Shown here: positions 1,484-44,469 of the stretch, piece after piece
How the letters are laid out: each line of letters opens with the position of its first letter
Position numbering within the stretch: the first letter of the stretch is position 1
Virus record (IMG/VR): IMGVR_UViG_3300038701_000522
Location: 1 to 45,469 of that record
DNA: 45,469 bases
Reading direction: 5' to 3' (one strand)
From: a virus
Notes under the pieces: model-generated
The model's database searches: none
What the model saw: the letters and a program-made list of their open reading frames with translations, nothing else
Told to the model about the DNA's origin: nothing
Translations under genes and position numbers: made by a program

Positions 1484-1947
1484 AAGCAATGGAGATGAAA
1501 AATCATATCACGCTATCGGTTAAGGCGTGGTGGATTATTATTTTGTGTGCAGGGTATTTGGTGGTTAATCCCATGAAGGTGGTGGATTTGATACCGGCCT
1601 CGGAATGGTTAGAGGTGGATAGCATCTTTGTCTATAATGGACCGCCGGATACTGACTATGTACTTATGGATGTGGACAGGGATATTAAGAGACCGTTCGC
1701 TGCGGACTGGATTGTGGAGTTGGAGGCGAAACGCGGGAACCGTTATGCACTGGTCTGTGCGCGTAGAGGATCGAATGATTATAGCACGGATGCAGTTCTA
1801 CCCGCACATTTATCTTTAAGTTGGTGGATGAACTCAGACACATGTATTATACCTAGTGGGACGTATCGTATTGTAACGCGCTGGGACCTCAACATCGGTT
1901 CAGGCAAGGTCGTGCGCAAGAAAAGCAATGACTTTAATATTCGTTGA
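1480..1947 (+). CDS. Secreted or membrane-anchored protein, last gene of the late operon (155 aa)
   Basis: An N-terminal segment at about residues 12-30 (AWWIIILCAGYLVV) looks like a signal anchor or signal peptide. The remaining 125 residues look like a beta-rich periplasmic domain with many Trp and Tyr residues. Two conserved-looking cysteines (LVCARRG and SDTCIIPSG) could form a disulfide. A similar pattern, with WW before the second Cys and a terminal SN-F-hydrophobic motif, is familiar from uncharacterised phage proteins near lysis genes. It could act at the outer membrane during lysis, but no lipobox or spanin pair is visible. The 3' end overlaps the convergent helicase gene by 14 bp. 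Confidence 0.6.
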   Translation: MKAMEMKNHITLSVKAWWIIILCAGYLVVNPMKVVDLIPASEWLEVDSIFVYNGPPDTDYVLMDVDRDIKRPFAADWIVELEAKRGNRYALVCARRGSNDYSTDAVLPAHLSLSWWMNSDTCIIPSGTYRIVTRWDLNIGSGKVVRKKSNDFNIR

Positions 1948-3145
1948 AAGCAGCTGACCCGATTGTATAAACGATCCCCTTACCGCTGACGTGTTTGGAT
2001 TTCAGCATCTCACTCTCCGTCATCGTTCTGATAATGGTCTCGATCTGATAGGACGGGACCTTATTTTGTAGGAAGCGCATCACGGCAGTCTTCGGCAATC
2101 CCTCGCCCTTCTTCTTAATCCCCCATGAGTGGACCAAGTGCCAGACGTCCTCGATAACCTTGTTGTCTGAGTTCTCGGCGGCCATGCTACGGAATATTTC
2201 AGGCATGTATTCTTCGGCTTCGATAAGCCATCCTAGTGCCGTGTTGAAATCATCTTCTTCAATTATCAATTCGTCGGAACGGGACGCGCTGGCAACCATC
2301 ATAAGCTTAAGCATATGGGCCGTGCGCCGCGTGTTGTAATTGAACAATTTGGGGTGCGTTGGTTGCGGTACACAATCGGCCATTTGCCACGCGTCAATCG
2401 CTTCTGCGGCCTCTTGTGTGAATTTCATACGGCCCGTTAATGCCGCGATCCCGCGCAAATCCTCTTTAAGATCAGCAAGCATCGCTTCGTTGTTTTCCAC
2501 TTCCGCGAATAAGGACTGCTTACGCATCTCGCTTGAGAACACTAAGATCACCCGTGACATAAAGCCGTGCGACCAGATACCCTCTGGCATACCTGAGTGA
2601 AGTTGTCCAGGTGTTGTGCCTGCGAGTAGATTAAGTTGTGGGCGTTGAACGGTGAATGTGTTCTTGCCATCGCCGCTTCTACGGGACTCCGAGTACGGGT
2701 GGCCATCATAGATATCTGTAAGCTTGCCCATCATCGGCGCATCGTATGCAGGGAGAAGAACTTGCAACTCGTTGGAACAAATCTTTAGCGAACAGAACTC
2801 CTCATTCTTGCCACCCGCCACAATGATGTTGCGCTTTGCCTCACGCAGGTCATCCACAAGAGAAGCGGACGTTACACTGGATGGGGCAACGTGGTGTTCG
2901 GGTAGGCTGGACCACATCTCATGAACCAACTTGGTGAGGGCGGTCTTGCCGACTCCAGGTGGTGAAATCAGGATCGTATACAGGTTAGGGTATAACATAG
3001 ATTGGCGCGTAAATACTCCTACGCGCCTTTCCAATGCTCCTGCAACTGTTGCTATAGCCGCCCATCGGCTGAAAATTTCTGGTGAGGTTCCATGACAAGA
3101 ATAGTTTATGAAAGTCTCAATCCATGATGCGCATTTACGGGCCAT
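1934..3145 (-). CDS. DUF3987-like replicative helicase/ATPase (403 aa)
   Basis: This looks like a RecA/AAA-type ATPase of the group usually annotated DUF3987, often the helicase half of phage primase-helicases. It has a Walker A motif SPPGVGKTAL near residue 62 and a hydrophobic strand ending in SNEL that could serve as Walker B. LLAGTTPGQL suggests a sensor, and MSRVILVF may supply an arginine finger. The C-terminal 80 residues look like a winged helix. At about 400 residues it is the ATPase part only; no primase domain is fused to it. Its ATG overlaps the polymerase stop (TAATG), so the two are translated together. It is the last gene of the leftward arm and probably unwinds DNA for the split polymerase. 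Confidence 0.7.
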   Translation of the reverse strand: MARKCASWIETFINYSCHGTSPEIFSRWAAIATVAGALERRVGVFTRQSMLYPNLYTILISPPGVGKTALTKLVHEMWSSLPEHHVAPSSVTSASLVDDLREAKRNIIVAGGKNEEFCSLKICSNELQVLLPAYDAPMMGKLTDIYDGHPYSESRRSGDGKNTFTVQRPQLNLLAGTTPGQLHSGMPEGIWSHGFMSRVILVFSSEMRKQSLFAEVENNEAMLADLKEDLRGIAALTGRMKFTQEAAEAIDAWQMADCVPQPTHPKLFNYNTRRTAHMLKLMMVASASRSDELIIEEDDFNTALGWLIEAEEYMPEIFRSMAAENSDNKVIEDVWHLVHSWGIKKKGEGLPKTAVMRFLQNKVPSYQIETIIRTMTESEMLKSKHVSGKGIVYTIGSAAFNEY

Positions 3146-4728
3146 TAAAGGTAGTCCTCAAGTCTTAGCTTTTTCTTCTTGTTCGGAATGGTTAGGCGTT
3201 TGCGTTTGTCGAGCTGACCTTTCCATTTGATGAGGCCGTCTGGATTGCCTCGAGGCGTACCGTCAAGATTGTATTCAACCTCACCCCAATTCCACCCGAT
3301 CTTAGCGTCGGCGGGTACGCTGAACTGTCTCCCGCCGACCAGTGGGATTTTGACTGGGAGGGTAGCCAATGCCCACGGAATTATAACCTCTTCTAACTCT
3401 TCAGGGTACTGGAAGAGGATTGAGTCATGCACCTGACATAGGAGTTGAATTGGCTTACCCGCTCGCCATAACTGCAACATGCCCTCGTTGATCTCGTCGG
3501 AAGTGAGGGATTGTGGTTCATATGCGATCGCGGGGCGGAGGACGTTTGGATCAGTCGCCCGTCCCCAAAACATTCTGTTCCTGCCCATGAGGGTTTCGAT
3601 CTGGAATGTTTCCTCGAGTTGCTTCTTGCGCAATTGATGCCATGCTGGGATGCAAGGGAACGCGCCGAAGTATCTCTCTTGGAACTCCTTAATGATAGAG
3701 ACTGGTGTCTTCGTGTGCATCGCCATTGTGTTCGGTGTGCCGAGGTAGTTTGTGCCGTGGCCTAGCTTCTTCGCCATCTGACGGTAGCTGTCTTGGCGAT
3801 AGAATAGTTGTTCAGCTACCAGACGGGCTTGGGCTAGATCGGACATGTCCTCGGGCCAGTCCAATTCATTCCATGTCATCTTCGCAACGGTTGTGTGAAG
3901 ATCACCGGACTCACAAGCGTCTAGGTAAGCGCCCGCAAACTCAGGGCCGTGTGACTCATAGAACAATTGCCAGCAGATCGCGCCAACGTTTCGGCTATCG
4001 CCCTGCTCCAGATCGATGTTGCAAAACTTCATACCCTTGTCTGCGACGAAACAATCACGTTCCTCACGGTCGATGTTCTGCATGTTCTTGCCAGTGCCGA
4101 AGTCGGAAAAGGAACTGGACATGCGGCCCGTGTTAGTTCCAGCTATGTTGTAGGAACATCTAAAGCGGTTGTCCTTATCGATTTCGGTTTCGAAGAACTG
4201 GCGTTTCTTATCGAGATTTCTAAGAGTGAGGATGGCGTTGCAGAAGAACTCCGCGTAGTAATATGAAGACAAACGCTCGAGGGCGTCTCGGTTTGTTGTT
4301 GGTGCCATGACTCCATGTGCGTTACGCTTGCGAATGGGTTTAAGATCGAGGTATTGCACACCGTAAAAGAGAAGCTTACACTGTGCTGGAGAATTGTAAT
4401 TAAAGTTTTCAAAACCGAATGCCTCGCATACTCGTTTCAGGATTGTGTTTACCTTAGAGATTTTTCCACGGATGCTGACGAGTGCCTTGTCCCGTGTGTT
4501 GGTATCGACGAGGATACCGCGAAGGTTCATCTCTAGGACTGGTGCGCGCAAGGCTAATGATAAGGCATAGGTCTTGCGCGATGATGGGGTTTGTTGTGCC
4601 TCGAGTGCGGTATGGATTTCGTGTGTGAGGCAACAGTCAAGGGCGTTATAGATTTGGTCCTTGGTATCTTGTGACGCGGCGGCAAGAGTGCGCTCGTCTA
4701 GGTCTGCGTTTTGGATAATGGTAGCCAT
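3145..4728 (-). CDS. Family A DNA polymerase, polymerase part (527 aa), including exonuclease motif III
   Basis: This gene carries the DNA synthesis domain of a PolA-type polymerase. Motif A is CNIDLEQGDSR (Asp near residue 239). Motif B is RQMAKKLGHGTNYLG (about 316-330), with the O-helix Lys and Tyr. Motif C is CQVHDSILF (HDS near 434-436). The N-terminus contains YNALDCCLTHEI at about residues 27-38, which matches exonuclease motif III (Tyr-x-x-x-Asp). Motifs I and II are absent here and occur in the separate gene at 6226-7218. The start at 4728 is chosen because GGAGG lies eight bases upstream; ATGs at 4752 and 4743 have no such site. The palm and fingers look intact, so the enzyme should be active. 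Exonuclease function would need assembly with the partner protein. Confidence 0.9.
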   Translation of the reverse strand: MATIIQNADLDERTLAAASQDTKDQIYNALDCCLTHEIHTALEAQQTPSSRKTYALSLALRAPVLEMNLRGILVDTNTRDKALVSIRGKISKVNTILKRVCEAFGFENFNYNSPAQCKLLFYGVQYLDLKPIRKRNAHGVMAPTTNRDALERLSSYYYAEFFCNAILTLRNLDKKRQFFETEIDKDNRFRCSYNIAGTNTGRMSSSFSDFGTGKNMQNIDREERDCFVADKGMKFCNIDLEQGDSRNVGAICWQLFYESHGPEFAGAYLDACESGDLHTTVAKMTWNELDWPEDMSDLAQARLVAEQLFYRQDSYRQMAKKLGHGTNYLGTPNTMAMHTKTPVSIIKEFQERYFGAFPCIPAWHQLRKKQLEETFQIETLMGRNRMFWGRATDPNVLRPAIAYEPQSLTSDEINEGMLQLWRAGKPIQLLCQVHDSILFQYPEELEEVIIPWALATLPVKIPLVGGRQFSVPADAKIGWNWGEVEYNLDGTPRGNPDGLIKWKGQLDKRKRLTIPNKKKKLRLEDYL

Positions 4729-4732
4729 TGGT

Positions 4733-4939
4733 TTAGCCTCCATGCTGTTCAAATAGTGTTAACACTGCGTTATGAGAAATACCGTACTTATCAATTATAC
4801 ATTCAAAATCTTCTGCGGTGTGTTTAGCTATATGATCATACTCCCAATATAATTTATTATGTGTCTGCATTGCTGCAATCTCTGCGTTGGCGCAGGCTGC
4901 TTGTGCGTTAATAAAAGCGGCGGCTTGTTCCGGTGTCAT
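4733..4939 (-). CDS. Hypothetical protein (68 aa) upstream of the polymerase
   Basis: This small soluble protein has an alanine-rich helical N-terminus (MTPEQAAAFINAQ) and a mixed C-terminal half. A longer open frame to 5137 exists, but its extra part lies over the DUF1937 gene in another frame and looks like random sequence. The ATG at 4939 overlaps the DUF1937 stop (ATGA) and has AAAGG upstream, which fixes the start. The final codons (HGG, stop) form the GGAGG site of the polymerase gene. It is co-transcribed with the replication genes. I recognise no family. Confidence 0.65.
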   Translation of the reverse strand: MTPEQAAAFINAQAACANAEIAAMQTHNKLYWEYDHIAKHTAEDFECIIDKYGISHNAVLTLFEQHGG

Positions 4940-5376
4940 AACTGATATCCTTTCCAAATAGCTGAGCAAACACTTTGCGTTTCGAATGTGCTTGAGTCTG
5001 ACGGGGCAATGTCCTTGTTGAAGTGAATGTTCTTGAGGATAAGGCGACCGATCTTGTCTGCGCGAATAACCTTGACCGTGGTGTGCGTTTCGATTGCCAG
5101 CTTTAATTCCATGATCACGCCCTTGGAAGCTTTCCACCCTGGCATATGATCCAGTAATACGATGTAGTCTGAATGCGTCAGCATGTGAGTGTTAAAATCT
5201 GCCCATGACTGCGCGTCTCCGTCCATGCAATCAAGGAACTGAACGCCATAGACGATCGGGGAAAAGACTGTGTACCCTTCTTTCATCAGCATGGTAGCGG
5301 CTTCCTTGTGCGCCTCAGCGCGTTCGGCTTCTACCTTTGGACTGATGTGTGAGTATGGTCCTGCTAAATATATCAT
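4936..5376 (-). CDS. DUF1937 protein, nucleoside 2-deoxyribosyltransferase-like fold (146 aa)
   Basis: The N-terminus MIYLAGPYSH is the typical opening of DUF1937 and of nucleoside deoxyribosyltransferase-like proteins, where the Gly-Pro-Tyr loop lines the nucleotide pocket. Further signatures are PIVYGVQFL, a Ser-Trp-Asp-like SWADFNTHM, and DYIVLLDHMPGWKASKG, where the Asp and the Trp-x-x-Ser-x-Gly are usually conserved. Related enzymes cleave or exchange N-glycosidic bonds of nucleosides, but DUF1937 members are mostly uncharacterised, so a nucleotide-salvage or base-modification role is inferred. GGGAGGG precedes the ATG. It lies between the two halves of the DNA polymerase. Confidence 0.75.
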   Translation of the reverse strand: MIYLAGPYSHISPKVEAERAEAHKEAATMLMKEGYTVFSPIVYGVQFLDCMDGDAQSWADFNTHMLTHSDYIVLLDHMPGWKASKGVIMELKLAIETHTTVKVIRADKIGRLILKNIHFNKDIAPSDSSTFETQSVCSAIWKGYQL

Positions 5377-5386
5377 GCGTCCCTCC

Positions 5387-5596
5387 CTATAGATCGTCTA
5401 AGTTAACTAGGTGCAGTCCATCTTGAACTACCGTCTGTACTTGGCCGTGGTGGATATCACAGCGCTCCCAAAATTCCATCCACTCAGAAGGCGGACAAGC
5501 TTTAGGACGTAACAACTTCAGTTTGTTGTTGAAGATAACACCGTCAGTTAAGACCTCAATGTCAAGCCCTTTTATATCGATATCTAATACTGGCAT
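5387..5596 (-). CDS. Hypothetical protein (69 aa)
   Basis: This is a small acidic protein with a beta-rich N-terminus (VLDIDIKGLDIEVL) and a Trp- and Cys-containing centre (PPSEWMEFWERCD). It is preceded by AGGAGG, one of the strongest ribosome-binding sites in the arm, which supports the start. It lies 10 bases upstream of the DUF1937 gene and downstream of a 29-codon membrane ORF. I recognise no family and cannot assign a function. Confidence 0.6.
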   Translation of the reverse strand: MPVLDIDIKGLDIEVLTDGVIFNNKLKLLRPKACPPSEWMEFWERCDIHHGQVQTVVQDGLHLVNLDDL

Positions 5597-5602
5597 GAGA
5601 AC

Positions 5603-5692
5603 CTACCTCCTAAATAAAACTGTGATAAAAACTGCGCCGCTAAAACCAAACGCGACTGATGAAAGAAATAAGCTAAATTCGTCTCTGGTCAT
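5603..5692 (-). CDS. Very small predicted membrane protein (29 aa)
   Basis: This short ORF fills most of the gap between its neighbours. It starts MTRDEFSLFL and continues with a single hydrophobic segment (SSVAFGFSGAVFITVLF) ending in RR. GGAGAG lies seven bases before the ATG, the start is one base after the stop of the upstream membrane gene, and the stop codon merges with the AGGAGG site of the next gene. Tight packing, a good ribosome-binding site and a clean single transmembrane helix with positive-inside ends support a real gene. Its function is unknown; a helper of the neighbouring membrane protein is one possibility. Confidence 0.5.
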   Translation of the reverse strand: MTRDEFSLFLSSVAFGFSGAVFITVLFRR

Positions 5693-5693
5693 C

Positions 5694-6224
5694 TCACTCT
5701 CCAATCAGGTTAATGGTAATAGTATTGTAGACTCCAACGATGTGTTTCCATACCCAGTTGAATACGTCCGTCAATAGATCGCCGACCACGTAGCCGATAA
5801 CTGATAGCGGCCATGCAATAATCCAGCTGAAGATGCGGTCTTTATTGTAAGCAGCGCGGGCTTGGTACGGGAAGTCATTGGACTCAAAGAACTGGATTGT
5901 ATCGGTGATGTGGGACTCGTCGCGCGCCAATTTAATTTGGTGTTTAATGTGATCAGACTTCATGTACATGATCCATTTGAACAGGGACCAGATACCGCCG
6001 CAAGCGAGATAGCTGAATGTTACCCATGCCGCCTCGAATGGATCGTTTGTGATAGCGTCGATCGGACCCGCATCATAAGCTATTAGCGCAATAAACGAAT
6101 AGACTATGAAACCAGCGACTGCCCAAAACGTTGTCTCTTGTGCAGTGGATAGTGTGCATAGCGCGATAAGTGCGAGGAATAAAATCCAAGGCATGAGGGC
6201 GAAAGCGAATAGTAGTTCTAACAT
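5694..6224 (-). CDS. Multi-pass membrane protein (176 aa) between the polymerase halves
   Basis: Hydrophobic stretches occur at about residues 3-25, 33-50, 66-88 and 130-165, so three or four membrane helices are likely. A charged central loop (KSDHIKHQIKLARDESH) separates them. AGGAGG precedes the start, and the upstream exonuclease gene stops one base before it. Most replication-cluster genes are soluble, so a polytopic membrane protein here is unexpected. Membrane anchoring of replication or superinfection exclusion are possible roles, but there is no direct evidence for either and I recognise no family. Confidence 0.65.
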   Translation of the reverse strand: MLELLFAFALMPWILFLALIALCTLSTAQETTFWAVAGFIVYSFIALIAYDAGPIDAITNDPFEAAWVTFSYLACGGIWSLFKWIMYMKSDHIKHQIKLARDESHITDTIQFFESNDFPYQARAAYNKDRIFSWIIAWPLSVIGYVVGDLLTDVFNWVWKHIVGVYNTITINLIGE

Positions 6225-6225
6225 C

Positions 6226-7218
6226 TTAATCCTCCTTTTTAGTTGTGTCTTTGTTGGCGCGCATGAACTTCCACTGTGGTTCGTTGGAATGAAGTGAACC
6301 GAGGAAGCCGAGGCCCTTTTCCATTTCGGGCTGTTGCGCGTGTTGCATTAGCATGGTGTCCTCGGTGGCGTTGGGTAGGGCGATCCCGTACTCTTGCCAG
6401 AGGTAAGCCATGTCGTAGTTAAAGTTTTGCCCTACAATCTTCTTCGCATTCAAGCACCAGTTGCGCACGTAACCCCAAGCCCGTACCTCCTCAGAATGAG
6501 AAGACCAATAGTTGCGGGATGGTTTCTCGCGAGTGTAGAATGGGACTACGATCGCGAATGAGGGATCGGTTGCGAAACCCACGTGAGTAATTTGTGGTGT
6601 CTTGGTTTCGATATCGACTGATAGCATGTCGCAGTTAAGGATGCGGTCATTGACGAGGCGCAGGTCCTCAAGGGTTGGGTCAATCCACAATTCACGCTGC
6701 GGTCTACGCACACCCGCGAACTCCTGTTCCTTACCGCATTTGGCAAAGTCCGCCTCGATGATTGGGCGGAGTTTGAAATCGGCTTGAACGGAACGGGCTG
6801 AGTATGTGGCAATGATCTTGCCGTACTCGGACTGGATCGGACTGCCGCGATACTTGCGCAGGGAACGTTCGCCTGTTAAAAGCCATAGAGGAAGCTGGCC
6901 CATGCCGATGATGAGGTTGGGCTGTTCTGTTTTGAGAAGGTCCAGCGTAGCGGTTAGGTCTTTGGCGTACTCGGCCTTGATGTACTTCTTACTCATGAGG
7001 GACTTGGACTGCGGGATGCCCTGAGACTGAGGACCAACGTACTTGAAGATAGATGAACCTGCCTCTTTAAAGATTGGGTGTACGAGGACTTCGTCAAGGT
7101 TAATACCCTGTCTCTCACAAAGCCCTCGTAGCATACGACCTGCACCATCCGATAATAGTTCACCGGACTGGTCATCCCCATTCGTCGTATGTTCAGTTAA
7201 GATGATAGCCTTACGCAT
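6226..7218 (-). CDS. UDG-like domain fused to 3'-5' exonuclease motifs I-II: exonuclease part of the split DNA polymerase (330 aa)
   Basis: Residues 1 to about 165 resemble the uracil-DNA glycosylase superfamily. There is a GDDQSGELLSDGAGRML segment aligned with the family's N-terminal loop, and IIGMGQLPLWLLTG with a following RG. The catalytic GE(G/A)PG-type loop is not recognisable, so this domain may be structural. From about residue 195 it becomes a DnaQ/PolA-type exonuclease: SVDIETKT (motif I, Asp and Glu near 202 and 204) and GQNFNYDMAYL (motif II, Asp near 269). The protein ends at KDTTKKED, before motif III, which sits in the polymerase gene at 3145-4728. The start at 7218 is preferred over 7239 because AGTGAG lies upstream. 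It overlaps the preceding gene by eight bases. Confidence 0.8.
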   Translation of the reverse strand: MRKAIILTEHTTNGDDQSGELLSDGAGRMLRGLCERQGINLDEVLVHPIFKEAGSSIFKYVGPQSQGIPQSKSLMSKKYIKAEYAKDLTATLDLLKTEQPNLIIGMGQLPLWLLTGERSLRKYRGSPIQSEYGKIIATYSARSVQADFKLRPIIEADFAKCGKEQEFAGVRRPQRELWIDPTLEDLRLVNDRILNCDMLSVDIETKTPQITHVGFATDPSFAIVVPFYTREKPSRNYWSSHSEEVRAWGYVRNWCLNAKKIVGQNFNYDMAYLWQEYGIALPNATEDTMLMQHAQQPEMEKGLGFLGSLHSNEPQWKFMRANKDTTKKED

Positions 7219-7579
7219 TAGACAACTCACTTTCGACATGAGTTAACACACTCATGACAGTTTCATAGCTGTGAGTATCATTGAAGACAACTAGTGCTTT
7301 TGTCTCGCGTGTACGCCCTGCGCCGATGTTACCGGTAGGCCAGTTCATTACACGGGCGATTGCTTTTGCATAGTCGTTAACAGCGTCTGCATGAACGTCA
7401 TCTGTGTTAAGCGCATACATGACCGCGCCGATCAGGCAAAAACATCGTGCGTTCGGAGACAATACTGAAACAGGGAAACCACTAACATCTTCGGCGTATA
7501 TGCCTTGAGTCCACTGCTCAGGGTTTTGAAACACTTGTAAGATACTTCGTGTTGTTTCTAGGTGTTTGTTCTTTGTCAT
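7211..7579 (-). CDS. DUF6197-like protein (122 aa)
   Basis: This is a small soluble protein with the pattern of phage DUF6197 members: an N-terminal helix, WTQGIYAEDVSG, then RCFCLIGAVMYAL and a C-terminal segment ending KALVVFNDTHSYETVM. The Trp and the Cys-x-x-Gly-Ala are the recognisable conserved points. No biochemical role is established for the family as far as I know. The start at 7579 is chosen because GAGG lies nine bases upstream; the ATG at 7594 has no site. It overlaps the following exonuclease gene. Confidence 0.6.
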   Translation of the reverse strand: MTKNKHLETTRSILQVFQNPEQWTQGIYAEDVSGFPVSVLSPNARCFCLIGAVMYALNTDDVHADAVNDYAKAIARVMNWPTGNIGAGRTRETKALVVFNDTHSYETVMSVLTHVESELSNA

Positions 7580-7624: not shown

Positions 7625-8953
7625 TCAGTCCTCGTACTTGTGCCACTTCTCAACGGCGGCCTCGTGAAAGCTTTCATCTCGTTCTAGGCCAAGGACTGAC
7701 TTAGCACCTGCGAGATGGGCAGCGCGTAGGGCGTTGCAGCTACCAGCGGTTGGGTCTAGCATTACAGTTGTTTCGTCCACATACATCTCCATAAAGTGCG
7801 ATAGCATATCGACGGGCTTTTCACTGACGTGCATTGTCTTTACGTTCGCGGCTGAGACTAGATTTGATTTCATCTTCGCGATAAAGCGATCACCTCGGAC
7901 ACAGTGGAATGCGGTTTCATATACACGGCGTGGCTGGCGCTTGGCATCGGGTGCGATACCCTTGTTGTCAGACTTCCACCAGACGAGCGGGAACGGGGAA
8001 ACTTTCCACCCCATTGCCTCAAGTAGTTCTTTTGTCTTCGCGTAGTAGTCCATGCTAAACCAGAAAATCATATGAGCGTTTGGTGCGACGATTTTGGGCA
8101 TCGCCTTCTTCAACGTACCAAGCAAGTCCCAGTATACATCGGCGCTATCCTCATACGAACCGTACTCGAAACGGGCGGACTGATCAGAGTCCTGAAAGTT
8201 CACGCCGTATGGAAAGTCGCAGTGGATAAGGTTGAATGGTTCCACAACCTCAACGGAGTCAAGCCAGTGTGCGAACTCCACGTTTAGAATTGGCGCACGG
8301 GCGAGCGGTTCGTCTGATACGGGCGCGGACTCTTCAAGCTCTTTTACTTCCGCAGTTGTCTTGACGGTTGGGACCTTCTCGCCCAGCATCTCGGCAAGCA
8401 TACGGTTAGCAAGGATTGCCTCGTCGCCTTTCTCGCGGTTGTTCTTGCGATCGATGATGGACAGGGCGACTGATGCTTTCGGCGCTTCGATAACTGCAGT
8501 ATTGCCTGAGTCGATTTCATCTGCGATAGATAACCAGCGCAAGCCCGTACGATAATCGATGTTGACCTCGACGCATGTTTTCTCTAGCGTCCAGTCCTCA
8601 TGTTTCTCTTGATACATGGCGTGGAGTTTCTTAAAGGCCGTGCATTGTTCCTGCCATGTTAGGTCGGTGCGCTTTAGGTTCTCTTCCATCTCGATGAGGT
8701 AAAGCTCGGAAGGCTCAAGTTCGTCCGTGTACTGGACAGCTACGGTTTCATGGCCCAGTTCTTTTACGGCGAGATAGCGGGACTCACCTGCAACCAGCAC
8801 ATTATCTCTTGTCACAACAAGCGGATTGATCAGGCCGATACGACGGATGGACTCGGTTAGCGCGTTGATCTCTTTAAACTCTTTGCGCTGTCTGTCATCG
8901 CGTTCGATTGTGATGGAGTCGAGTGGGAGGGAGGTGAATGTTCCGCTAGTCAT
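7625..8953 (-). CDS. ParB-like domain fused to a DNA N4/N6-methyltransferase (442 aa)
   Basis: Residues 1 to about 110 form a ParB/Srx-type domain, with VLVAGESRYLAV (box I, 52-63) and EENLKRTDLT (box II, 90-99). A ParB-type helix-turn-helix linker follows (TLEKTCVEVNIDYRTGLRWL). From about residue 220 an amino-methyltransferase begins: catalytic motif IV is DFPYG (246-250, a DPPY variant), HVSEKPVDML precedes the SAM-binding motif, and LDPTAGSCNALRAA (about 403-416) is motif I. Motif IV before motif I gives the beta-type order. It probably methylates phage DNA against restriction, with the ParB part giving DNA targeting. The start has only a weak upstream site (GAAAG). An intrinsic terminator separates it from the upstream ssDNA-binding candidate. 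No cognate nuclease is present. Confidence 0.85.
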   Translation of the reverse strand: MTSGTFTSLPLDSITIERDDRQRKEFKEINALTESIRRIGLINPLVVTRDNVLVAGESRYLAVKELGHETVAVQYTDELEPSELYLIEMEENLKRTDLTWQEQCTAFKKLHAMYQEKHEDWTLEKTCVEVNIDYRTGLRWLSIADEIDSGNTAVIEAPKASVALSIIDRKNNREKGDEAILANRMLAEMLGEKVPTVKTTAEVKELEESAPVSDEPLARAPILNVEFAHWLDSVEVVEPFNLIHCDFPYGVNFQDSDQSARFEYGSYEDSADVYWDLLGTLKKAMPKIVAPNAHMIFWFSMDYYAKTKELLEAMGWKVSPFPLVWWKSDNKGIAPDAKRQPRRVYETAFHCVRGDRFIAKMKSNLVSAANVKTMHVSEKPVDMLSHFMEMYVDETTVMLDPTAGSCNALRAAHLAGAKSVLGLERDESFHEAAVEKWHKYED

Positions 8954-41823: not shown

Positions 41824-44469
41824 ATGACTATTTCATCCACCACAAACGTAGCGATTGCCACAGGTAATGGATCGACTACGGTTTTCCCGTACACGTTTCG
41901 GATTGATGACGCTGATGAGTTGGTGGTTACACTACTGACTATCGCGGATAATACAGAAGAAGTGCTGACCGCATCGCAATACTCTGTAACAGGGATTGGT
42001 GATGATGCGGGCGGTACAGTTACATATACAGATGATAGCGCGCAACCACTCGCCGCAACTAAGAAGCTTATCATCGAGCGGATTGTGCCGTTGGATCAGC
42101 AAACAACTCTGAACAACCAAGGTGGTTTCTACCCCGAAACAGTTGAGCAGCAGCTGGATCGCGTGGTTATGCAAGTGCAGCAGGTAGCGGAAAAATCTGA
42201 TCGCGCAATCACTGTTCCGACTGGTGTGACACTTACGGATTACGATACGTTCTATACTAACCTTTATAATGTGGCGGCAATCACGACTGAGATTGTTGGG
42301 GTGCATGGAAACGCCGCGAACATTACTACGGTGGCAGGGTTAGATACTGAGATAACAGCACTAAGTCCAGTGGTATCACACATTGAGACGCTAGGCCCGA
42401 TCGCTGCAAATATTACTACAGTGGCTGGACTTGAAACGGAAATCGGTGAGATTTCTACAAACCTGACTGCCGTGCAGAACGCATCTGCAAACGCGCTGGC
42501 CGCTGCTGCTAGTGCTGCTGAGGCACTGGTTTCGGCACAGAACGCACAGAGCTCAGACACGGCAAGTTATGTCACGCTAGGAAATGACGATACTTCCATT
42601 CACGCAGGTGTTGAAAGCTTTAATACCAGCACAGGTACAGGCAATGTTGGCCTAGGCTATCGTACTGGTTATGCTTCTACAACTTCTGTATGGAATGTGG
42701 CAATTGGTGCGTATACTTTAGATGCAATAACTACAGGAAGCCGTAACGTTGCTGTTGGTGCTAGTGCTTTAGGAGCTAATATCACTGGTAGTAATTCTGT
42801 AGCTGTTGGCAACAATTCCTTAGAAACTCACACAGGGGGTTCGGTAACCGCAGTTGGCTATCGTACTGGTCAATACGCAACAACTGCGCATTCTATGACA
42901 TTGATGGGTTATGATGCGGGTAGACAGATTACCACTGGTACAGGTAACTCTGCATTTGGACATTCCGCTCTATCAGCAGCAACAACAGGGACGGAAAACT
43001 CTGTGTTTGGTGCAAATGCTGGCGACGCACTAACAACAGGTTCTAGTAACTCTTTAGTAGGCCATGCGGCTGGTGGTGCGTTAACGACAGGTTATGGCAA
43101 TGTGGCAATGGGGATGACAGCCCTTCACGAGAACTCCATTGGCGGATACAACATAGCAATTGGTCAAGGTGCACTATATAGTTTTACAGGTACTGGAAAT
43201 ATTGGTGTTGGTTACAATGCGCTTTACGCTTGTACCACTGGTGTGAACAACATTGGTATAGGCTATACAGCGGCAACATCGGCTACAACGGCAAGTAATA
43301 TTACTGCTATAGGTAATTATTCTTTGGATGCGTGTACAACAGGCGCAAACAATACCGCTGTTGGTCCAAGCACCTTAACGGCAAACACCACAGGCCAACA
43401 AAATACAGCGGTAGGTGTAAGCGCGGGCACAAGTAATACGACAGGAAGTTATGGCACATTTGTAGGTGTAAGTGCTGGCAATAATCAAACAACTGCTGTG
43501 CATAATACATTTATAGGTTTCCAGACTGGCTATTATTCAACCACGTCAGGCCATAACACTGCTGTCGGTTCTTGGTCGTTTCACCTGAACACTACAGGCG
43601 CAAACAATTCTGCCTTTGGCTATCGCGCACTACATAATAATACTACGGGCTATAACAACGAAGCATTCGGTTATCAGTCTTTGCACAATAGTACGACTGG
43701 TCATCACAATCAGGCGATAGGTTTAAGTGCACTGTACGCTAATACGACTGGTTATCAGAACGTGGCCTTGGGAGCACAAACGCTTACCAACAATACAACA
43801 GGTGTTAATAATACGGTAGTAGGTTTTCAGTCGTGCTATTATAACACAGTAGGCAACGAACTAACCGCAATTGGTTTCCAATGCTTACATAGTGTTACAG
43901 GTAGTAGTAATACTGGTATGGGCCTTCATGCGGGGGTTAATGTTACAACAGGTGCATACAATACCGTAATAGGCCGTGGTGCTGGTGCAAACATTACTAC
44001 AGGCTCAAATAATGTTGTCATCGGCTACGCGTCTGGAGCTTCATCCGCGACTGTAAGTAACGAGTTTACATTAGGCAGTGGCTCGATCTCATCATTACGT
44101 TGTCAACAAACTTCCATCACCGCGTTATCAGATGGGCGCGACAAGAAAGACAAGCGTGATTTAGAGTTTGGCTTGGATTTTCTCAATCAGACTAAACCTG
44201 TTTCGTTTACTTGGGACGTTCGTGACCCAGAGGAAAACGATGCAAGACAAGGTAAGCGTCGAGCTGGCTTCATTGCGCAGGACTTGAAAGAGTTAAACGA
44301 TGCGACAGAGGGTGTGCTTGATCTGGTTTACGAAAGTAATCCTGAAAAGCTTGAAGCTAAGTATGGTAACCTACTCCCCGTAATGGTCAAAGCTATTCAA
44401 GAGTTGTCTAATAAGGTGGACGCGCTAGAAGAGCAAAATGAATACCTCAAACATAAGTTAGGAATGTAA
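41824..44469 (+). CDS. Tail fibre with 17-residue repeats and S74 self-cleaving chaperone (881 aa)
   Basis: Residues 1-135 (SSTTNVAIATGNGSTTVFPY, then LIIERIVPLDQQTTLNNQGG) form the common podoviral tail-attachment domain. A helical Ala-rich stalk at about 195-245 follows. Residues about 267-745 are roughly 28 repeats of 17 residues with the consensus TTGxxNxAxGxxALxxN, predicted to form a beta helix. From Ser769 (ALSDGRDKKDKR) comes a peptidase S74 intramolecular chaperone of 113 residues, ending in a coiled coil (NKVDALEEQNEYLKHKL). Autocleavage before Ser769 should release the chaperone after trimerisation. The repeats probably present the receptor-binding surface. It follows the gp16-like gene by two bases. 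Confidence 0.9.
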   Translation: MTISSTTNVAIATGNGSTTVFPYTFRIDDADELVVTLLTIADNTEEVLTASQYSVTGIGDDAGGTVTYTDDSAQPLAATKKLIIERIVPLDQQTTLNNQGGFYPETVEQQLDRVVMQVQQVAEKSDRAITVPTGVTLTDYDTFYTNLYNVAAITTEIVGVHGNAANITTVAGLDTEITALSPVVSHIETLGPIAANITTVAGLETEIGEISTNLTAVQNASANALAAAASAAEALVSAQNAQSSDTASYVTLGNDDTSIHAGVESFNTSTGTGNVGLGYRTGYASTTSVWNVAIGAYTLDAITTGSRNVAVGASALGANITGSNSVAVGNNSLETHTGGSVTAVGYRTGQYATTAHSMTLMGYDAGRQITTGTGNSAFGHSALSAATTGTENSVFGANAGDALTTGSSNSLVGHAAGGALTTGYGNVAMGMTALHENSIGGYNIAIGQGALYSFTGTGNIGVGYNALYACTTGVNNIGIGYTAATSATTASNITAIGNYSLDACTTGANNTAVGPSTLTANTTGQQNTAVGVSAGTSNTTGSYGTFVGVSAGNNQTTAVHNTFIGFQTGYYSTTSGHNTAVGSWSFHLNTTGANNSAFGYRALHNNTTGYNNEAFGYQSLHNSTTGHHNQAIGLSALYANTTGYQNVALGAQTLTNNTTGVNNTVVGFQSCYYNTVGNELTAIGFQCLHSVTGSSNTGMGLHAGVNVTTGAYNTVIGRGAGANITTGSNNVVIGYASGASSATVSNEFTLGSGSISSLRCQQTSITALSDGRDKKDKRDLEFGLDFLNQTKPVSFTWDVRDPEENDARQGKRRAGFIAQDLKELNDATEGVLDLVYESNPEKLEAKYGNLLPVMVKAIQELSNKVDALEEQNEYLKHKLGM
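42622..44060 (+). repeat. Tandem 51-bp coding repeats of the tail fibre
   Basis: About 28 diverged units encode 17 residues each, most clearly in the second half, where TTG recurs every 17 residues (for example around 43640-43810). Units share ACNACNGGN-type starts for Thr-Thr-Gly, but the DNA is well diverged. Codons here are more A/T-rich than in the terminase and portal genes. Confidence 0.8.

Follow-up and report, generated by a model that had tools for sequence, protein, structure and literature searches.

A phage family A DNA polymerase divided inside its proofreading exonuclease domain

Split replicative DNA polymerases are already known from phages, in family A (PMC10580990) as well as in family B (PMC2988022), and the breaks compared here leave the exonuclease whole. 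We describe a family A polymerase encoded by two genes whose break falls inside the 3'-5' exonuclease domain, in a 45,469-nucleotide stretch of viral DNA (IMG/VR virus record IMGVR_UViG_3300038701_000522, analysed at full length and called the window below). The protein carrying exonuclease motifs I and II is referred to as the exo half and the protein carrying motif III and the polymerase domain as the pol half; related loci are given as L numbers.

The closest described relatives are fused family A polymerases in which a uracil-DNA glycosylase (UDG)-like domain, the exonuclease and the polymerase follow one another in a single polypeptide (Microcystis phage Mel-JY34, Desulfofustis phages; PHROG 17). 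They share domain order and motifs with the split pair at about 25–30% identity, but they lie on the other side of a single tree branch. The split PolA of OM43 phages MEP401 and MEP402 (PMC10580990) and that of Vibrio phage VS-ABTNL-3 resemble the window in comprising two genes with a small gene between them (184 amino acids in VS-ABTNL-3), but are broken within PF00476, with the exonuclease in one protein. In two loci from our scans, L002 (2909-6043) and L229 (3923-6607), PolA is divided within its polymerase domain, as published for MEP401. The T4-like gp43A/gp43B of Aeromonas phages 25 and 44RR is likewise a split replicative polymerase, but of family B, and in 44RR the break falls in the DNA_pol_B domain, leaving the exonuclease domain intact on one protein. 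NrdA of Aeromonas phage Aeh1 is an essential enzyme split at a functionally critical region and fully active as two chains (PMC2988022), but it is a ribonucleotide reductase with the homing endonuclease mobE at its break, whereas HNH-like genes occur in few of the gaps seen here. A match to a stand-alone exonuclease, ExnV1 (7r0t), was set aside; its authors judge the gene truncated (PMC9629493). In open-access papers, we found no account of an entire lineage with its break within the exonuclease site.

Anatomy of the divided polymerase

Two minus-strand open reading frames (ORFs) make up the polymerase (Table 1). The exo half has 330 amino acids from its ATG, or 337 if an upstream ATG at 7239 is used; its C-terminus reads ...EPQWKFMRANKDTTKKED, and the stop falls ahead of motif III. 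The pol half has 527 amino acids from an ATG preceded by a GGAGG Shine–Dalgarno (SD) sequence, or 535 from a TTG at 4752. DEDDy motifs I (DxE), II (Nx3D) and III (Yx3D) are all present, spread over two polypeptides rather than held in one chain. This placement of the motifs, and the ending of the 330-residue protein before motif III, had been proposed in a first reading made from the sequence alone (the sequence-only reading), and both are borne out by the ORFs and by a partial match to the Pfam exonuclease profile PF01612, which covers only positions 9–123 of 173 in the window's exo half and stops at about 123–130 in exo halves generally. The NCBIfam PolI model NF004397 (889 positions) is divided likewise, with 321–418 falling in the exo half and everything from 449 on in the pol half, such that the two proteins cover the Pfam and NCBIfam PolI models as complementary pieces. 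The pol half belongs to family A by its match to PF00476 (E 9.6e-27). Its palm aspartates are retained in relatives with the column filled (D239 in 114 of 115, D435 in 110 of 111), departures occurring only in L059 and L009, members that are broken or cut.

The first ~165 residues of the exo half form a UDG-like domain that the sequence-only reading overlooked. PF03167 matches 45 of 49 aligned relatives and leaves the window's own copy unmatched; the PHROG 17 DNA polymerase matches the exo half from residue 8, and an AlphaFold2 model of the exo half matches UDG structures, with the phiLo family A polymerase 9qhs on top. The UDG motifs, retained in most relatives, are degenerate in the window phage, reading TEHTT (GEAPG-type) and SARS (HP-type), so the domain may be structural here.

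Recurrence and conservation of the break

The same break was found in about 160 phage loci, marking a lineage of more than 150 related environmental phages, in scans that each retained the best 80 hits only. Scans of viral contigs gave 111 distinct same-strand split pairs, whose gaps range from overlapping genes up to <1.7 kb with one exception. Two further split members (L241 and L242) came from the scan seeded with fused relatives and the genome-contig scan; the latter contained only two split members, in contigs of metagenome-assembled genomes (Phycisphaerae and Acidobacteria bins). Seeding with the deepest split members added 48 split pairs and no fused form, and seeding with fused forms brought the fused relatives to 79 in all. 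The break is also present in the cultured Caulobacter phage Kuura (31–36% identity), where the exo half is annotated 'hypothetical protein'. A megablast search of window positions 1–25000 against named phages returned no match. Two loci were not relied on: L148, whose gap measures 4.75 kb and whose exo half runs off the contig, and L059, which is broken. In L062 (= L142) the halves lie on opposite strands of a 5.8-kb contig, a rearrangement or possible misassembly, and the reading frame of the fused-group relative L235 (679-3380) is interrupted at a third position, ahead of exonuclease motif II, which may be a frameshift.

A tree built from the polymerase regions of 56 split and 25 fused forms (quick method, LG+G4; two long branches among the fused forms flagged) has a single branch with every split form on the same side of it (Shimodaira–Hasegawa-like approximate likelihood ratio support, SH-aLRT, 100). 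The distribution of split and fused forms needs one change on this tree, a value as low being reached in none of 500 shuffles. The division inside the exonuclease domain proposed for the window is clade-wide. The change presumably ran from fused to split, as single-chain PolA occurs widely. No re-fused member was found among the loci sampled, a statement about the sample given the best-80 limit of each scan.

Both proteins retain their catalytic residues. In the first set, the D and E of motif I are present in 120 of 120 exo halves, the N and D of motif II in 121 of 121, and the Y and D of motif III in all 117 pol halves with that end present; the last batch, in which two exo halves are cut short, has Yx3D in all 50 pol halves. 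Motif III is absent from the C-terminus of every one of the 121 exo halves. A second exonuclease, either PolA-type (PF01612) or DnaQ-type (RNase_T/PF00929), was not detected in the window and 29 other long phage records, with the reservation that PF01612 sensitivity is limited, the known exo half having been missed in 10 of the 30. The lack of a motif III in the exo halves and of a detected second exonuclease supports the earlier claim that a working proofreading site would have to be built from two polypeptides. Recurrence of the same break and the same motif residues in about 160 relatives is far beyond chance.

The break might instead have killed proofreading, leaving the halves as remnants and the pol half working alone as an exo-minus polymerase, much as phage divPolA1 keeps its polymerase with all three exonuclease aspartates replaced (PMC11348598). 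We regard this as very improbable. The catalytic residues are essentially invariant on both sides in proteins down to about 31% identity, and the UDG motifs of the same protein decay while the exonuclease residues stay: near-invariant columns number 18 in the exonuclease region and 6 in the UDG region, where motif residues, serving as an internal control, are kept at only 78–93%.

How the two halves may work together

The best explanation, in our view, is that the polymerase is a two-subunit family A enzyme whose DEDDy exonuclease site is composite, and we hold it with considerable confidence. The products of both genes would be subunits of a single replicative DNA polymerase of the phage. The UDG-like domain would belong to the exo subunit, as would the exonuclease core and its metal ligands D202, E204 and D269; the pol subunit would contribute the motif III helix (Y27, D31) as well as the thumb, palm and fingers. 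On association, the motif III helix would dock on the exonuclease core and complete the proofreading site. With catalytic residues preserved in both proteins, joining of the two is very likely required to form that site, and we infer that the halves physically associate, dock and are active together. Split phage replication enzymes do reassemble, Aeh1 NrdA and the 43A/43B halves of phage 25, which co-purify and have polymerase activity, providing the precedent (PMC2988022).

The protein ends suggest where docking may occur. Every exo half ends 8–18 residues past an invariant WK, often with the tail T-[ILV]-K-[KR]-[DE]-[DE], and pol halves recurrently start M-x-x-I-I-x-T. In fused relatives, the WK is joined to motif III by a short linker of about 17–22 residues with no terminal extensions. 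The exo-half tail and the pol-half N-terminus are likely docking elements, being conserved and lacking a counterpart in the fused relatives examined. The split would have arisen once, in the loop between WK and motif III, and then been kept.

The AlphaFold2 model of the window exo half alone is confident (predicted local distance difference test, pLDDT, 91.2; tail about 43). Such a confident fold, together with the conserved acidic residues ending the tail, could mean that the exo half works in trans as a nuclease sufficient in itself, the acidic tail replacing motif III. This seems very improbable to us, since the tail is disordered in the model and varies in length, and there would be no explanation for the Y and D that open the pol half and are invariant. 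In the relative L022, a single in-frame TAA separates the exo and pol genes, and the PF01612 match crosses this stop (positions 22–173). Modelled as one chain with TAA read as Q, the L022 tandem gives one Klenow-like fold (pLDDT 92.4; predicted template modelling score, pTM, 0.90) whose best PDB matches are full-length Klenow structures (template modelling score 0.77 by target). The break lies in a loop, junction residues 312–319 scoring below 50 (about 40), and the motif III helix (336–361) is confident. The model shows that the exo and pol parts are compatible with one Klenow-like fold, binding of separate chains being beyond a one-chain model.

Three relatives with both halves in one frame around a stop also raise the question of whether the halves are joined after all, by trans-splicing, a split intein, ribosomal bypass or stop readthrough, into one polypeptide. 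A split intein with a homing endonuclease interrupts PolB in phage MIJ3 (PMC6892783), and intein-like insertions occur inside the pol halves of three relatives. However, the 8–18 residues past WK and roughly 22–40 before motif III are too short for split-intein halves, gaps of 1 kb or more containing genes are common, and the two halves are usually in different frames. The pol half moreover has its own SD-preceded start here, and relatives show ATGA or TAATG overlaps. Joining is in our judgement extremely improbable. The insertions themselves (~290 residues, starting with C and ending TGN before S/T) lie at three different palm sites in L009 (4575-6419), L016 (7303-9753) and L061 (7780-10191); they have no Pfam intein match, and L009 alone has a weak LAGLIDADG_3 match.

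Several observations weigh against the two-subunit polymerase. Motif II departs from consensus in two exo halves of the last batch, D to E in L302 and N to G in L300, the only such departures seen. The ratio of nonsynonymous to synonymous substitution rates (dN/dS), under 0.15 where computable, speaks for it but is indicative only because dS is saturated. Inter-subunit covariation is weak: the expected interface accounts for 0.15 of the top pairs, and shuffled pairings give 0.08 on average and 0.13 at most. Finally, the tandem model comes from a relative, was forced into a single chain and used an alignment that includes fused homologues.

Genes at the break and implications

On the minus strand the order is exo half, 176-residue membrane protein, 29-residue ORF, 69-residue gene, DUF1937 gene, 68-residue ORF, pol half and DUF3987 gene. 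The five small same-strand ORFs between the halves are those the sequence-only reading had described, membrane protein and DUF1937 gene included, and its view that no intein or homing endonuclease marks the break also stands: neither was found in the window, where the termini of the two halves leave no room for an intein.

Table 1 Features of the divided polymerase locus, in window coordinates.
Feature	Position	Strand	Remarks
Exo half: UDG-like domain and motif I/II part of PolA 3'-5' exonuclease, 330 aa	6226..7218	(-)	
UDG-superfamily-like N-terminal domain, residues 1-165	6724..7218	(-)	family motifs (GEAPG, HP) degenerate here
Exonuclease motif I, SVDIETKT, residues 200-207, D202 and E204	6598..6621	(-)	
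Exonuclease motif II, GQNFNYDMAYL, residues 263-273, D269	6400..6432	(-)	
Invariant W316-K317 and conserved tail of exo half	6229..6273	(-)	residues 322-330 disordered in isolated model
Pol half: motif III helix, thumb, palm, fingers of family A polymerase, 527 aa	3145..4728	(-)	
Pol-half N-terminal extension (MATIIQNADL...)	4651..4728	(-)	M-x-x-I-I-x-T pattern recurs in relatives
Exonuclease motif III, YNALDCCLTHEI, pol-half residues 27-38, Y27 and D31	4615..4650	(-)	
Intervening 176-aa membrane protein, without family	5694..6224	(-)	
Intervening 29-aa ORF	about 5605..5691	(-)	
Intervening 69-aa gene	5387..5596	(-)	homologue sits between halves in L007
Intervening DUF1937/DUF4406 nucleoside-deoxyribosyltransferase-like gene, 146 aa	4936..5376	(-)	
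Intervening 68-aa ORF	4733..4939	(-)	
DUF3987 primase/helicase-like neighbour	1934..3145	(-)	adjoins pol half in other members too

Gap contents vary among loci, with DUF1937/DUF4406-like genes in 41 and DUF7768-like genes in 11, and in 14 loci there is no space between the halves or their frames overlap, the overlap being ATGA or TAATG in several. The break site therefore tolerates cargo. HNH-like ORFs occur in about 6 of the 96 gaps that contain ORFs; homing endonucleases may have caused the fission, though this is unproven.

Elsewhere in the window, a ParB N-terminal domain is fused to an N6/N4 DNA methylase (7625-8953), and similar methylase genes lie directly upstream of the exo half in L007, L008, L009 and L010. 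The protein encoded at 41824-44469 is repetitive and tail-fibre-like, and a Peptidase_S74 intramolecular chaperone domain forms its end.

One conceivable reason for keeping the split is that proofreading becomes separable. The pol half could then replicate without the exonuclease, and the amount of UDG-exo subunit, or its binding, would let the phage set its mutation rate or how it responds to DNA that is damaged or contains uracil. We put this forward tentatively and think it unlikely.

The family A proofreading exonuclease is a textbook single-chain active site; here a large lineage appears to run it as a two-protein site, apparently kept over long evolutionary time without going back. As a split enzyme found in nature, it lends itself to studying how active sites endure being cut in two, whether the dose of proofreading can be varied independently of synthesis, and why re-fused forms do not turn up; the cultured Caulobacter phage Kuura (PMC9959647) makes the two-subunit reading testable.
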